A stretch of 64,000 nt of DNA from Desulfosporosinus youngiae DSM 17734 (lineage in GTDB: Bacteria > Bacillota > Desulfitobacteriia > Desulfitobacteriales > Desulfitobacteriaceae), in NCBI RefSeq assembly GCF_000244895.1, contig NZ_CM001441.1, positions 2,996,226 through 3,060,225 of the forward strand. Reading direction: 5' to 3'. The notes under the pieces were generated by a model, which did no database searches, had not been told where the DNA came from, and was given only the letters and a program-made list of their open reading frames with translations. The translations under genes and the position numbers were made by a program. Shown here piece after piece: positions 3,366-24,298 of the stretch. The stretch's first letter is position 1, and the number at the start of each line of letters is the position of its first letter.

Positions 3366-4469
3366 TTAACCGAGTGAAATCTTGCAATTCTGTTTGTCCT
3401 GAAAACGTTCCAAACCCAGCGATATTAAACGGTCAATCAATTCCTTATAGGGAATCCCTGTGGCTTCCCACATCTTAGGATACATTGAGATTTCCGTAAA
3501 ACCAGGTAAGGTATTAATCTCATTAAGGATAATCTCATTTTCTGCGGTTACAAAAAAGTCAACCCGGCTCAAGCCATTAGCTTCCACAGCCTGAAAGGCT
3601 TCAACAGCCATAACCTGTAGTTTTTTTACAACCGATTCATCCAAAACCGCTGGAATCAAAAGACTTGAGCCGATATCCGAATACTTTGCTTCATAGGTAT
3701 AGAACTCTTCTGCCGGTAAGATTTCTCCGGGGACAGATGCCATAGGTGTGTCATTTCCCAGCACGGAAAGTTCGATTTCGCGGCCGATGATGGTTTCTTC
3801 TATGACAAGTTTACGATCAAAGACGGACGCCGTCTTCAGGGCGTCTAACAGCTCTTCACGATGGTGAGCTTTGGATATACCCACACTAGACCCCAGGTTA
3901 GCAGGCTTCACAAAGCAGGGATAACCGATCGTTTCTTCAATCCGATTAAGACATGTCTCCATACTGCCAAGGACTTCTGAGCGCAGGAGAGTAACATAAC
4001 GAGCCAAAGGCAGATGTTTCTCCAAAAAGACCGCTTTCATCCGATCTTTATCCATACCAAGTGAGGAACCTAATACTCCTGATCCAACATAAGGAGCATT
4101 GGCCATCTCTAATAATCCCTGGAGAGTGCCGTCTTCTCCATAAGGACCATGAAGAACGGGAAAAATAATATCAAAGGTTCCCTGGTTGGGAAGAGAATGT
4201 CCGTCCAGGGAGATAAAATGCGGGTTTGTAGGGTCGATAACCAGAGTTACCTGAATAGCCTCATCAGGCTTAGGGAACCCATTCTTAATAAGCTCCTCCG
4301 GTAAAACCCCCCAAAACCACTGTCCCTGTTTACTGATTCCGATGGTTTCTACATTGTAACGGTTTCGGTCTATTGCTTTGTAAATCGAGTGTGCTGAATT
4401 CAAGGAAACCTCATGTTCACCTGAGCGACCGCCAAAGAGAAGAACCACTTTTAGTTTATGATCATCCAC
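3366..4469 (-). CDS. ddl: D-alanine--D-alanine ligase
   Basis: An ATP-grasp enzyme of 367 residues that makes D-Ala-D-Ala for peptidoglycan. The N-terminus LKVVLLFGGRSGEHEVS is the family signature. ATP-grasp elements follow: KPANLGSSVGISK, the EE pair before the lid, and NEINTLPGFTEISMYP near the C-terminus. I choose GTG 4469 because GAGAGGG lies about 7 bp before it; the in-frame TTG at 4487 runs into that site. It converges on lexA and follows signal peptidase I on the same strand. Confidence 0.95.
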   Translation of the reverse strand: MDDHKLKVVLLFGGRSGEHEVSLNSAHSIYKAIDRNRYNVETIGISKQGQWFWGVLPEELIKNGFPKPDEAIQVTLVIDPTNPHFISLDGHSLPNQGTFDIIFPVLHGPYGEDGTLQGLLEMANAPYVGSGVLGSSLGMDKDRMKAVFLEKHLPLARYVTLLRSEVLGSMETCLNRIEETIGYPCFVKPANLGSSVGISKAHHREELLDALKTASVFDRKLVIEETIIGREIELSVLGNDTPMASVPGEILPAEEFYTYEAKYSDIGSSLLIPAVLDESVVKKLQVMAVEAFQAVEANGLSRVDFFVTAENEIILNEINTLPGFTEISMYPKMWEATGIPYKELIDRLISLGLERFQDKQNCKISLG

Positions 4470-5171: not shown

Positions 5172-6440
5172 TCATGAGCTGAGGAGCCCTTTTTGCCACA
5201 AATTCAGGGCCGCTAAGATGTTGCCCATCTGAACATAAGTACAGGATATGCCCCCTTGCTGATAGACAATATAGGGTTCCCGGAGGGGTCCATCCGCAGA
5301 GAATTCACTGGTTGAACCTTGGATAAAGGTTCCGCCGGCCATAATGATTTCATCTTCATATCCGGGCATTCCGGATGGAACAGGCAAAACATGAGAATCG
5401 ATGGGCGATCCTTTTTGGAGTCCCTGACAGAAGGCGATCATTTTTTCCCGTGAACCGAGTTTAACAGCCTGAATAAGGTCCGTTCTGGGCGTTTCCGGTT
5501 CGGGATGTACTTCAAATCCCAGAGCCCGCCAAAAGGCTGCCGAAAAAACAGCCCCTTTAATCGATTCAGCAACCGTTAAAGGGCTGAAGAATAGTCCTTG
5601 ATAAAAAAGGCGCTGCCATTCCAGGGTTGCCCCCATATGTCCGCCAACTCCCGGGGCCGTTAAGCGCTGAGCGCTGAGCTCAATTAAATCAGAACGCCCG
5701 GCCACATATCCCCCCGTTGGGGCCAGACTGCCTCCTAAATTTTTAATCAGTGATCCGGCCATTAAATCCACGCCGATATCACCTGGCTCCAGGGCTTCGA
5801 CCAATTCACCATAACAGTTATCGACAAAGATAAGCAGATGGGGATAGTTCTCTCTGACAAAATCCACCAGTTCCTTTAACTGACGGATCATCAGAGCATT
5901 TCTCCAGGCATAGCCCCGTGAACGCTGAACCAGCAGCATTCGGGTTTTATCGGTAATGTTCTCTTTAATAAGGGCATATTGCAATTTGCCCTCGGAGTCC
6001 AAGGGAACTGTAGCATGGGATATGCCAAAATCCATTAGACTCCCCTGTCCTTTTCCCCTCAGACCGATGACTTCTTCCAGGGTATCATAAGGGGTCCCGC
6101 TAACCGAGAGGACATGGTCTCCCGGCCGCAGAACGCCAAATAAGGCAGCCGCTATAGCATGGGTACCTGAAACGAACTGACCACGGACCAGCGCTGCTTC
6201 TGTGCCTAAGATACGAGCAGCTACCCGATCCAGGACTTCACGCCCGGAATCTCCCAACCCATATCCGGTCGTTCCCTGTAAATGATAGGCTGATACACGT
6301 TCTTCTTGAAAGGCATTCAGAACCTTTTCGTGATTTTTCTGAGTGATTTCTTGTAAGGCAGGTAATTGAGCAAAGAGTGCTTCGTCTGCTTCAGCTGCTG
6401 CCTTGCTGATCAGCTTTGGCCATTTTGGATTGGAATACAA
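5172..6440 (-). CDS. ynbB: Methionine gamma-lyase-like PLP protein (YnbB / aluminium-resistance family)
   Basis: A 422-residue fold-type I PLP protein. The likely PLP lysine is in AGSLIKNLGG; GTHAIAAALFG and DNCYGELVE are cofactor-pocket elements. The family is annotated as cystathionine/methionine gamma-lyase-like or aluminium resistance, but its true reaction is unsettled. The start is TTG 6440 with AGGAGGA 6 bp upstream. The order spoVK-hflX-ynbB is the Bacillus subtilis order, which supports the assignment. A stable operon partner role with hflX is likely but unproven. Confidence 0.88.
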   Translation of the reverse strand: MYSNPKWPKLISKAAAEADEALFAQLPALQEITQKNHEKVLNAFQEERVSAYHLQGTTGYGLGDSGREVLDRVAARILGTEAALVRGQFVSGTHAIAAALFGVLRPGDHVLSVSGTPYDTLEEVIGLRGKGQGSLMDFGISHATVPLDSEGKLQYALIKENITDKTRMLLVQRSRGYAWRNALMIRQLKELVDFVRENYPHLLIFVDNCYGELVEALEPGDIGVDLMAGSLIKNLGGSLAPTGGYVAGRSDLIELSAQRLTAPGVGGHMGATLEWQRLFYQGLFFSPLTVAESIKGAVFSAAFWRALGFEVHPEPETPRTDLIQAVKLGSREKMIAFCQGLQKGSPIDSHVLPVPSGMPGYEDEIIMAGGTFIQGSTSEFSADGPLREPYIVYQQGGISCTYVQMGNILAALNLWQKGLLSS

Positions 6441-20862: not shown

Positions 20863-22188
20863 TTAGCTTTCAATAACTCCAAACAATGTCCATGAGCCGG
20901 CTTCTGTGATCCGGACATTAACTAAAGAGCCGATTTGTTCCGGCTGTCCCTCAAAAACGACAAGTTCATTGCCGCGGGTTCGTCCGACTAAGCGCTCAGG
21001 GTTCGTCTTACTAGGTCCCTCGGCCAAGATTTCAAAGATATTGCCGATCATCTGCTGCCGCCATTCCAAGCTTTTTTGGTTTTGCACACTCATTAATCTC
21101 TGTAAACGCCGCTTCTTAACGTCAAGAGGTATTTGATCTTCCATTTCGGCTGCCAGCGTACCTGATCGTTTCGAATACATAAATGTGAAGGCTTGGCTAT
21201 AATGGATTAAGTCCATTGTTTCTAACGTCAGTTCAAAATCCCTTTCACTCTCGCCTGGAAAACCAACAATAATATCCGTTGTCAAACTCGCCTGGGGCAG
21301 AAAGGCATGAATCTTTTCAACCCGACCTAAATAGTATTCCCTTGTGTATTTTCGATTCATGCGCTCTAAAATGAAATTACTGCCTGATTGGATAGGAAGA
21401 TGAAAATGTTCGCAAAGCTTTTTCCCATGAGCAACCGTTTCAATCAGCTTATCGGATAAATCCTTGGGATGAGACGTAATAAAGCGTATCCGTAAAAGGT
21501 CCGGTATTTGATCGACCTCTTGAAGTAAATCTGCGAAGTCATACCCAGGAGAAAATTCCTGACCATAAGAATTAACATTCTGACCAAGCAACGTTACTTC
21601 CCGGCAGCCGCTGGAGACAAGGTCTCTGATTTCCTGAATGATTTCTTCAGGTTTACGGCTTCTTTCTCTCCCGCGTACGTGAGGAACAATGCAATACGAA
21701 CAGAAATTATTGCAGCCGTACATGATATTTACATTAGCTTGCAGCTTGCCTTTTTCGGCTTGCGGCGTCGATTCTATGGTCATCTTCGGTTCTTCCCAGA
21801 CTTCCGCAACCTTTTCTCCCTGTTCAGCCTGATGCAGAAGTGCGGAAAAATCATGCAAATTGTGAGTCCCGGCCCAAATATCAATATGAGGGGCTCGTTT
21901 TTTCAAACGTTCCAAGGCACCAGGCTGTTGGACCATACACCCACTAATCGCAATTTTTAAGTTTGGATTTCTTTCTTTAAGTCGTTTTAGTTCACCGATT
22001 TTCCCGAGGATTTTATTTTCGGCACTTTCTCTTACACAACAGGTATTAATGATGACTAAATCGGCATCCATAAGATCATCTGAACTCGTGTAGCCCTCTT
22101 GCCTTGTAATTTGGGTCAATGTTTCGGCATCACGTTCAGACATCTGACAGCCGTAGGCCAATGTCACAACCTTTTTGTCCTTCTTCAA
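20863..22188 (-). CDS. miaB: tRNA methylthiotransferase MiaB
   Basis: A radical-SAM enzyme (441 residues) that adds the 2-methylthio group to i6A37 made by MiaA. The N-terminal MTTase domain carries cysteines in YGCQMS, NTCCVRE and SGCMVQ. The radical-SAM cluster is CNNFCSYC, and a C-terminal TRAM domain follows. The TTG start has GGGAG at 10 bp. A good promoter lies 41 bp upstream. It is read into the ymcA-like gene. Confidence 0.97.
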   Translation of the reverse strand: MKKDKKVVTLAYGCQMSERDAETLTQITRQEGYTSSDDLMDADLVIINTCCVRESAENKILGKIGELKRLKERNPNLKIAISGCMVQQPGALERLKKRAPHIDIWAGTHNLHDFSALLHQAEQGEKVAEVWEEPKMTIESTPQAEKGKLQANVNIMYGCNNFCSYCIVPHVRGRERSRKPEEIIQEIRDLVSSGCREVTLLGQNVNSYGQEFSPGYDFADLLQEVDQIPDLLRIRFITSHPKDLSDKLIETVAHGKKLCEHFHLPIQSGSNFILERMNRKYTREYYLGRVEKIHAFLPQASLTTDIIVGFPGESERDFELTLETMDLIHYSQAFTFMYSKRSGTLAAEMEDQIPLDVKKRRLQRLMSVQNQKSLEWRQQMIGNIFEILAEGPSKTNPERLVGRTRGNELVVFEGQPEQIGSLVNVRITEAGSWTLFGVIES

Positions 22189-22257: not shown

Positions 22258-22372
22258 ATTCTGATCAGTTCACCAATCTACTCACTGCTTTTCAGCGTAA
22301 TAAGCAGGCTACTTTTGGTCACCCTGAAAAAGACCTCAAAAACATTCAAAGAATCTGTAGACCTCAAAGGAA

Positions 22373-22657
22373 GGCAGCTTCTCCCACAGAAGTGAACTCA
22401 TTGCATGGAGAGACGTTAAAATCCCACAAGCCGGCGCGGGGAAACGTAGCCACGGGTTCACATCAAAGGTACTACCCGGAGGTTTGGCACGAAAGTGTCC
22501 GGTGGACAGTTTCGCCGAAGCGGCTGTCTACAAAGAATACTTATCCGCTGAAGGTAGCTCCCACGCCGGTGAGTGGGCAAGCCTCGGAGTGCTGAGGTAC
22601 GAAGACACTGTCTTCGCACGAATTAACTAATCTTGCACGGATGTGGGAGAAGCTGCC
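22373..22657 (+). ncRNA. Structured RNA, tandem copy 1 (raiA-like candidate)
   Basis: A 285-nt element closed by a perfect 16-bp stem: GGCAGCTTCTCCCACA (22373-22388) with its complement at 22642-22657. Inside are a GAACTC/GGGTTC pairing with one G-U, a GGCGCGGG/CCCACGCC pairing with one mismatch, and the segment ACGTAGCCACGGGTTC, which is identical in copy 2. About 75 nt of extra hairpins are inserted relative to copy 2. No protein is plausible across it. Size and conserved core recall the raiA RNA class from memory; I am sure of the structure, less of the family. Confidence 0.75.
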
Positions 22658-22765
22658 CGACCCAAAGGACCTATTTTCATCATCTGATGGTGCAGTAGGC
22701 GGTATGGGCGGCTACACTGAAAAAGGCCCTAAAGACACGCAGAAAAGTCCCCAGACCCGCAAGCA

Positions 22766-22948
22766 GGGCAGCTTCGTCCACAGAAGCGAACCCATTGCAT
22801 GGAGAGGCGATAAAAGCCCACAAGACGGTGCGGGGAAACGTAGCCACGGGTTCACATCAGGTACTACCCGGAGGTTTGGCGAAGTCCCGCACCGGCAAGT
22901 GGGCCAGCCTCGGAATGCTGCGGTGAGTGGATGTGGATGAAGCTGCCC
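22766..22948 (+). ncRNA. Structured RNA, tandem copy 2 (raiA-like candidate)
   Basis: A 183-nt second copy. Its 17-bp outer stem (22766-22782 with 22932-22948) contains one pair that is G-U only if read on the plus strand, which fixes the direction. Inner pairings are GAACCC/GGGTTC and a perfect GGTGCGGG/CCCGCACC. The core ACGTAGCCACGGGTTCAC and the segment TACTACCCGGAGGTTTGGC match copy 1 exactly. Homology between copies extends about 49 nt upstream (from CTGAAAAAG at 22324 and 22717) and downstream to TTTTCATC-TCTGATG, so a whole unit was duplicated. Confidence 0.78.
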
Positions 22949-23011
22949 TACCCAAGCGCACTCACGTTTTCATCCTCTGATGAGGAAGACCAAACTTTCT
23001 TCCTAAGAAGA

Positions 23012-24298
23012 TTACTTCAGCCTTGATTCATGTGAATCAAAATTACCGGATAAATTCCTTCTTCTTGTTGAGCGCCTTACTTGCCGCCGCCAATAACGAG
23101 TCCTGCGTCTTCTTTGATAACTATTAACCATAAGTGCTATAAACGAAATAGTAAGAATTGAACCGATAATCCAAGCCAGATGAGATGAGCCTACCGAATC
23201 AATTCCGGATTTCTCCTCGACGCCCCTTGAGGTTTTGAGGGGCAATGTGTTTAAGAGTGTTTCTCCCTCCAGGATTTCAACATGGCCAACCACCTGCCCC
23301 TTTTCTACAGAGGTTAATGGATTAGTGTCTTGAGTTACACGCAGATTCAGCGAGGCTTGAGGTTCGTTTAGTTTCTGGGTCATATAAATCGGATCGTCAA
23401 GAATAAGATCTACTGGTTCATTATTAACGATAATTGATGAAATAACTGACCCCCTGGACTTAAAAACCGTGCTTTTATACTGGGAAAAGCCATAGTTAAA
23501 CATAGCCTGCATATCAGTCCAAATCTCTTTTCCCGGTGACTTGAGAATCACGCCAATCAGCTGACGTCCATCTTTGGAGGCTGAGGCAACAAAACAATTT
23601 TGAGCGGCTTGTGTGTACCCTAATTTGATTCCATTGATTGAAGGGTCTTTCCATAATAATTCGTTTTGATTAACCATTAGAATGGGAACATTCTCTTTGG
23701 ATCTGGAGATAGGATGGGTTTTGGTGCGAACATACTCTGCGAACATAGGATTTCGATAAGCGGCTCGTGCTATAAGCGCGAGATCGTGAGCGGTGGTGAC
23801 ATGCCCTTCCTCTGTTAATCCGCTTGGATTCACAAAATGAGTTTGGGTTGCCCCAATATCAAGAGCCTTTTGATTCATCATTTCGACAAAGCTTGGTATA
23901 TCACCGCCGCCAATATGCTCGGCAAGGGTAACTGCTGCATCATTAGCAGAGTTTAACAAGGTAGCATAAATCAGATCTTCAAACCCTATTTTTTCCCCGG
24001 GCTCCAGGTATATCGCAGTACCATAAACCAACTTATTGTTGAGCATTGTTGAGCTGACCGTTACAATATCACTAAAATTTCCTTTTTCGATGGCCAATAG
24101 TGCTGTCATAATTTTTGTGGTGCTTGCGGGAGCTAATTGCGTATTTGGATTTTTCATAAAAAGAGCTTGTCCGGACATTACGTCTATCAAGTAGGCCCCT
24201 TCTCCGCGTATGACCGGCGGAGGTTCTTCTGCATAAACAGGGGGCGTAACACTAACCAGGCTATAAAGCATAATAAAGACTGTGATGATCAATTTCAT
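23012..24298 (-). CDS. dacF: D-alanyl-D-alanine carboxypeptidase (DacF/PBP5 type)
   Basis: A 428-residue exported penicillin-binding protein. A signal peptide ends near VYAEE (about residue 24). SxxK is STTK and SxN is SAN. The third motif reads KLG (GIKLGYTQAAQNC) instead of KTG. A PBP5 C-terminal domain (about 285-370) and a membrane segment with an Arg-rich cytoplasmic tail close the protein. This is the second such enzyme in the window. AGGAGG lies 11 bp before the ATG. It converges with the two RNA copies. Confidence 0.88.
   Translation of the reverse strand: MKLIITVFIMLYSLVSVTPPVYAEEPPPVIRGEGAYLIDVMSGQALFMKNPNTQLAPASTTKIMTALLAIEKGNFSDIVTVSSTMLNNKLVYGTAIYLEPGEKIGFEDLIYATLLNSANDAAVTLAEHIGGGDIPSFVEMMNQKALDIGATQTHFVNPSGLTEEGHVTTAHDLALIARAAYRNPMFAEYVRTKTHPISRSKENVPILMVNQNELLWKDPSINGIKLGYTQAAQNCFVASASKDGRQLIGVILKSPGKEIWTDMQAMFNYGFSQYKSTVFKSRGSVISSIIVNNEPVDLILDDPIYMTQKLNEPQASLNLRVTQDTNPLTSVEKGQVVGHVEILEGETLLNTLPLKTSRGVEEKSGIDSVGSSHLAWIIGSILTISFIALMVNSYQRRRRTRYWRRQVRRSTRRRNLSGNFDSHESRLK

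Follow-up and report, generated by a model that had tools for sequence, protein, structure and literature searches.

Within the window, i.e. the whole 64,000-nucleotide stretch of Desulfosporosinus youngiae DSM 17734 (contig NZ_CM001441.1) that was analysed, the intergenic region between miaB (20863-22188, minus strand) and a D-Ala-D-Ala carboxypeptidase-like gene (23012-24298, minus strand) holds an array of two tandem copies of a repeat, here termed unit A, one in a long and one in a short form (Table 1). The array is antisense to both flanking genes and sits on the 5' side of miaB, not downstream of it as the original prediction had placed it. The predicted pair of copies with a shared core and long closing stems is borne out: the two are 87% identical over a 107-nt segment (22359-22465 and 22753-22859), they have further blocks in common (D2, D4 and D5, the last being 22 nt at 100%), and their closing arms match over 16 bp at 100% in copy 1 and over 18 nt at 94% in copy 2. 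Copy 1 does carry the extra hairpins that had been noted, but these are split between two inserts, one following GGTTTGGC (about 66-69 nt) and one near 22598-22633 (about 36 nt), rather than forming a single one of about 75 nt. The folding of both copies beats that of all shuffles (z of -5.4 and -7.3), and a covariance model built from 50 diverse copies, the window's short copy included (model R2), scores copy 2 at 192.9 bits and copy 1 at 95.8 bits (match 22369-22618). A search of the array region for a sigma-70-type promoter found none.

Table 1. Features of the array between miaB and the carboxypeptidase-like gene (positions in the window)
Feature	Position	Strand	Remarks
Whole array	22321..22991	+	Leader, unit A long form, linker, leader, unit A short form, truncated linker
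Copy 1, left-end leader (ACCCTGAAAAAGACC...)	22321..22358	+	Repeat D3; common to other copies
Copy 1, unit A long form	22359..22668	+	Closing arms 22373-22388 / 22642-22657
Copy 1, near-invariant apical loop (GGTTCACATCAAAGGTACTACCCGGAGGTTT)	22455..22485	+	
Long-form insert 1	~22489-22557	+	Hairpins; 3' side, between the apical stem and the next stem; from the 50-copy alignment
Long-form insert 2 (CGAAGACA..TCTTCG hairpin)	~22598-22633	+	From the 50-copy alignment
Linker, right-end REP-like hairpin TTTTCATC..GGTGC..GGC..TGGGCGGCTAC	22674..22715	+	Stem degenerate here
Copy 2, left-end leader	22714..22760	+	Shared repeat blocks
Copy 2, unit A short form	22763..22953	+	Closing arms 22765-22782 / 22932-22949
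Copy 2, near-invariant apical loop	22849..22877	+	
Second linker, truncated, 5' part (TTTTCATCCTCTGATG)	22967..22983	+	

Unit A folds into a rod-like structure of about 190 nt, whose tip is a nearly invariant loop of about 30 nt (consensus GGUUCACAUCAGGUAYUACCCNGAGGUUU). The alignment of the 50 diverse copies, with a mean column identity of 70%, bears out the pairing expected among relatives, with two-sided compensatory change in 33 of the 41 predicted pairs. In the consensus structure 92.9% of the cells are paired and 429 are doubly changed, as against 52-85 in slid structures; the consensus was derived from the tested alignment itself and is for that reason favoured over the slid versions, though the difference is large nonetheless. 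None of 500 shuffles reached the observed value on any measure. Judging from this alignment, matched mutations have preserved the unit A fold in several bacterial families. Apical stem pairings such as GCCA/UGGC, GGCAA/UUGCC, CACCG/UGGUG and CGCUA/UAGCG suggest that this stem encloses the invariant loop, a proposal based on such individual compensated examples only, the corresponding count test not setting it apart from a swapped control (mean of 4.92 versus 4.70). A candidate long-range GAACC/GGUUC pairing was noted by eye. The consensus energy is -47.2 kcal/mol on the plus strand and -31.5 kcal/mol on the minus strand. The earlier claim that stem differences are compensated by G-U pairs on the plus strand only comes down to a single stem position in the window's copies, yet holds in the 50-sequence alignment, where pairs with a Watson-Crick consensus show 86 G-U against 29 A-C combinations on the plus strand and, with the minus strand folded instead, 61 against 55. 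By these measures the plus strand is the structured one. What had been put forward as selection on an RNA thus stands as a conserved plus-strand single-stranded structure, whose active form could be either RNA or single-stranded DNA, these two not being separated by the analysis.

Comparison of the units with the Rfam set (4227 models, presumably including that of raiA) did not find a match for either unit at the gathering score, and relaxing the threshold to an E-value of 10 yielded only a chance-level snoRNA match outside the unit cores. The suggested kinship with raiA RNA is therefore not supported. That RNA resembles the unit A short form in length and occurs in Bacillota, whereas unit A lacks a covariance-model match at any threshold used and has a dispersed, mobile distribution. 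Integron attC sites were also considered and set aside, as inspection by eye showed no GTTRRRY/RYYYAAC core sites.

Unit A is a dispersed intergenic repeat family, present in both orientations. A DNA search of the D. youngiae genome (5,660,978 bases) found more than 40 places, with likeness to the long form in some and to the short form in others, and a covariance model built from 27 short copies of this genome gave at least 85 matches there; the copy counts come from models trained on the unit A family itself, and those per genome are minimum values. With the 27-copy model, unit A turns up in 24 of the 30 genomes that represent the genus and in 40 of the 74 that represent the order, and model R2 recovers it from 13 of the 398 genomes sampled across the phylum, three of them outside the class. 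Copy number is very uneven among related genomes, ranging from none to at least 85. All 70 copies examined in D. youngiae lie between open reading frames, with flanking-gene arrangements of ++ (31), -- (23), +- (10) and -+ (6) by simple ORF prediction; a fixed orientation to genes, apparent in a first set of distant genera, disappeared in larger sets. An exact match to the unit A core occurs in a Desulfosporosinus MAG record, and collections of phages, plasmids and viral contigs gave no unit A match. The open literature that was searched holds no description of the repeat, and its papers on REP and HUH systems do not mention these genera.

The copies are joined by a linker of about 45 nt with the form TTTTCATCNTCTGMTGGTGCYGC-N3-5-GCRGCATGGGCGGCTAC, followed by GGCTAC in most copies of this genome, where it has 102 matches as compared to none for a reversed control. 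A copy of unit A, or of the second structured unit described at the end (unit B), stands upstream of 62 of the 84 linkers that were parsed; most of the remaining 22 stand first in their array, and some are minimal or truncated at the 5' end. The left end begins near CTGAAAA/GCCCTG, and the next unit begins with ..CTGAAAA directly after the linker, an arrangement that explains why tandem copies, like those in the window, can be unequal in length. Such side-by-side copies had been thought unusual, but further arrays exist in the same genome (L009 and L038). Linkers are present in other genera of the family and absent beside copies in more distant families. The frame FSSSDGAAAAAWAATLKK stays open in many linker copies, and its TCN codons differ in ways that look synonymous; a coding role was rejected, since changes of 1 nt in loop length break the frame while keeping the hairpin. 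Some positions of the linker stem are mismatched, including in the window's linker, which counts against a mobile-repeat reading, as does the lack of linkers beside the copies in more distant families.

Evidence for mobility comes from empty sites and from exact ends. Five close relatives (miaB 83-84% identical) have no element between miaB and the carboxypeptidase gene, the exact junction being unreadable there because the intergenic region is too diverged. Judged by these relatives, the array in the window is lineage-specific. In a genome of another genus of the family (G067), which has many copies with identical scores, 25 elements of 228 bp share exact ends, and their flanks place the insertion site at CT^GA, with the left flank ending in CT in 33 of 33 cases and the right one beginning with GA in 40 of 40, without a consistent target-site duplication. 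The end that matches the linker tag reads GTCTGAC here and not CTAC. Between the same ends the core runs forward in 16 of these elements and reversed in nine, and two versions of 69-72 bp have no core at all. Thus, ends and core are separable, and inversion of the core does not stop the spread of the element. MITE-like elements are generally recognised by multiple near-identical copies, by ends that these share exactly and by relatives in which the site is empty. All three are seen in these genomes, the amplification history of the copies being read from their identity only. The elements of G067 (L223-L242 and L263-L282) sit inside arrays of a 7-nt repeat, GANTNCT, and these recall the intergenic heptamer direct repeats reported for other bacteria (PMC4679880); they may be either targets or footprints of insertion.

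The family shares several traits with REP, BIME and REPIN repeats and their RAYT transposases, viz., short intergenic multi-copy sequences with a hairpin beside GTAG/CTAC (observed in D. youngiae), boundaries at CT, tandem or mosaic arrays and a non-autonomous nature. It differs in being a large structured unit (~190-290 nt) with a near-invariant loop and no associated RAYT, and in that the core, not the end hairpin, is conserved between families. Miniature elements derived from IS200/IS605 are likewise similar in their subterminal hairpin, the lack of a consistent target-site duplication and a specific short insertion site; unlike them, unit A has an interior that covaries across genera, and no matching autonomous element was found among the copies examined. 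Three Y1_Tnp genes, one of them RAYT-like, are present in D. youngiae, and none was detected in two copy-rich genomes (G003 with at least 62 copies and G035 with at least 27). Where Y1 or RAYT genes do occur, they are not flanked by linker or unit A repeats, and on these two grounds they were rejected as the mobiliser. No version of the element bearing an open reading frame was seen among the copies examined in D. youngiae and G067. The RAYT-like transposase gene of D. youngiae (L120, 5111000-5117500) has a different repeat of 128 nt nearby, with copies at L120:1-128, 3687-3814 and 5509-5636.

In our view, the array in the window is probably a tandem pair of mobile repeats of a non-autonomous, REPIN/MITE-like kind, each carrying a deeply conserved single-strand structure. 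Since it resembles REP/REPIN or IS200/IS605 elements but has no RAYT, and its best-conserved part is a large internal fold, we group it under non-autonomous mobile repeats. A trans-acting enzyme would cut at CT beside the hairpin and paste the unit elsewhere, and tandem arrays would arise by insertion of a unit at the CTAC/CTGA end of a linker that is already in place. TnpA-REP is documented to cleave at CT beside a GTAG-tagged hairpin (PMC8266576). A trans-acting enzyme of the HUH/Y1 type is therefore an attractive candidate, and mobilisation in the single-strand manner of REP/RAYT and IS200/IS605 may perhaps be entertained on this analogy, albeit at somewhat less than even odds. The least certain step is the role of the core, which may work as RNA or single-stranded DNA recognised by mobilising or host machinery, because it is the core and not the ends that is preserved across families. 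On the other hand, the occurrence of the core in either orientation to the ends indicates no fixed relation between the conserved strand and a transposition strand; this speaks against the preferred reading, as does the failure to find a mobilising gene linked to the repeats. A bolder and rather doubtful extension is that unit A represents a new class of selfish structured nucleic acid, a bacterial counterpart of SINEs, in which an RNA or single-stranded DNA core rather than terminal repeats would signal to the mobilising enzyme and could be captured between different ends in either orientation. The core may also be a new structured RNA class. A fold of about 190 nt that is maintained by compensatory change across families, reaches about 85 copies in a genome and is absent from Rfam is unusual in any case, since in bacterial miniature elements it is normally the ends, rather than an elaborate interior structure, that are conserved. 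A functional RNA in the core would mean that an RNA class has gone unrecognised in dozens of genomes, and a mobility signal would point to mobilising machinery yet to be recognised. The exact-ended copies within one genus make both ideas testable.

It is also conceivable, though improbable, that unit A represents a family of functional host ncRNA genes in their own right, encoding for instance a sequestration or RNP RNA, which became amplified and whose mobile ends are incidental. That the core is deeply conserved between families, with compensatory changes, fits such a family, as do the persistence of the core where linkers are absent and the seemingly orthologous positions of some copies in two genomes (L149/L128 and L139/L141). 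The many near-identical copies with exact mobile-element boundaries and the range of copy number among related genomes argue against it, and at the window's locus the site is empty in relatives and no promoter-like site was found in the region. With about 85 dispersed copies in the genome, an empty site in close relatives and no promoter-like site found in the region, the original view that this locus holds a dedicated pair of RNA genes is likewise not supported.

Dispersed structured repeats that are numerous within a genome and frequently lack an ORF are also typical of HEARO, the omega-RNA of IscB, and unit A may be compared with these as a guide-type RNA that would serve, in trans, an RNA-guided nuclease from the IS200/IS605 group and be spread as protein-less copies. 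Many copies adjoin an IS605-like right-end hairpin, and a TnpB-like ORF was recognised by eye in D. youngiae (L121). We regard this possibility as very remote, given that unit A matches neither HEARO nor any other Rfam family, that its units have no significant similarity to TnpA/TnpB loci, that its core occurs either way round relative to the ends, and that no RRXRR (IscB-type) partner was detected in D. youngiae, in a search that gave no match in any control genome either. That each copy is a cis-acting UTR element (a terminator, mRNA stabiliser or regulator) selected at its own site would agree with their intergenic location, often near stop codons, but is scarcely credible for copies lying in both orientations to genes, in the arrangements counted above, and without consistent neighbours. 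A non-autonomous mobile repeat with a conserved internal structure remains our preferred reading of unit A.

Unit B, a second structured unit unrelated to unit A, measures about 387 nt with an optional insert of about 55 nt, and was aligned from nine copies. It lies upstream of unit A at nine loci of D. youngiae (L014, L020, L026, L030, L031, L032, L033, L039 and L040), gives no match to Rfam, and is framed by the same kind of leader and linker. At the first of these loci, a T-box leader (RF00230) is present at L014:23-308 on the minus strand.
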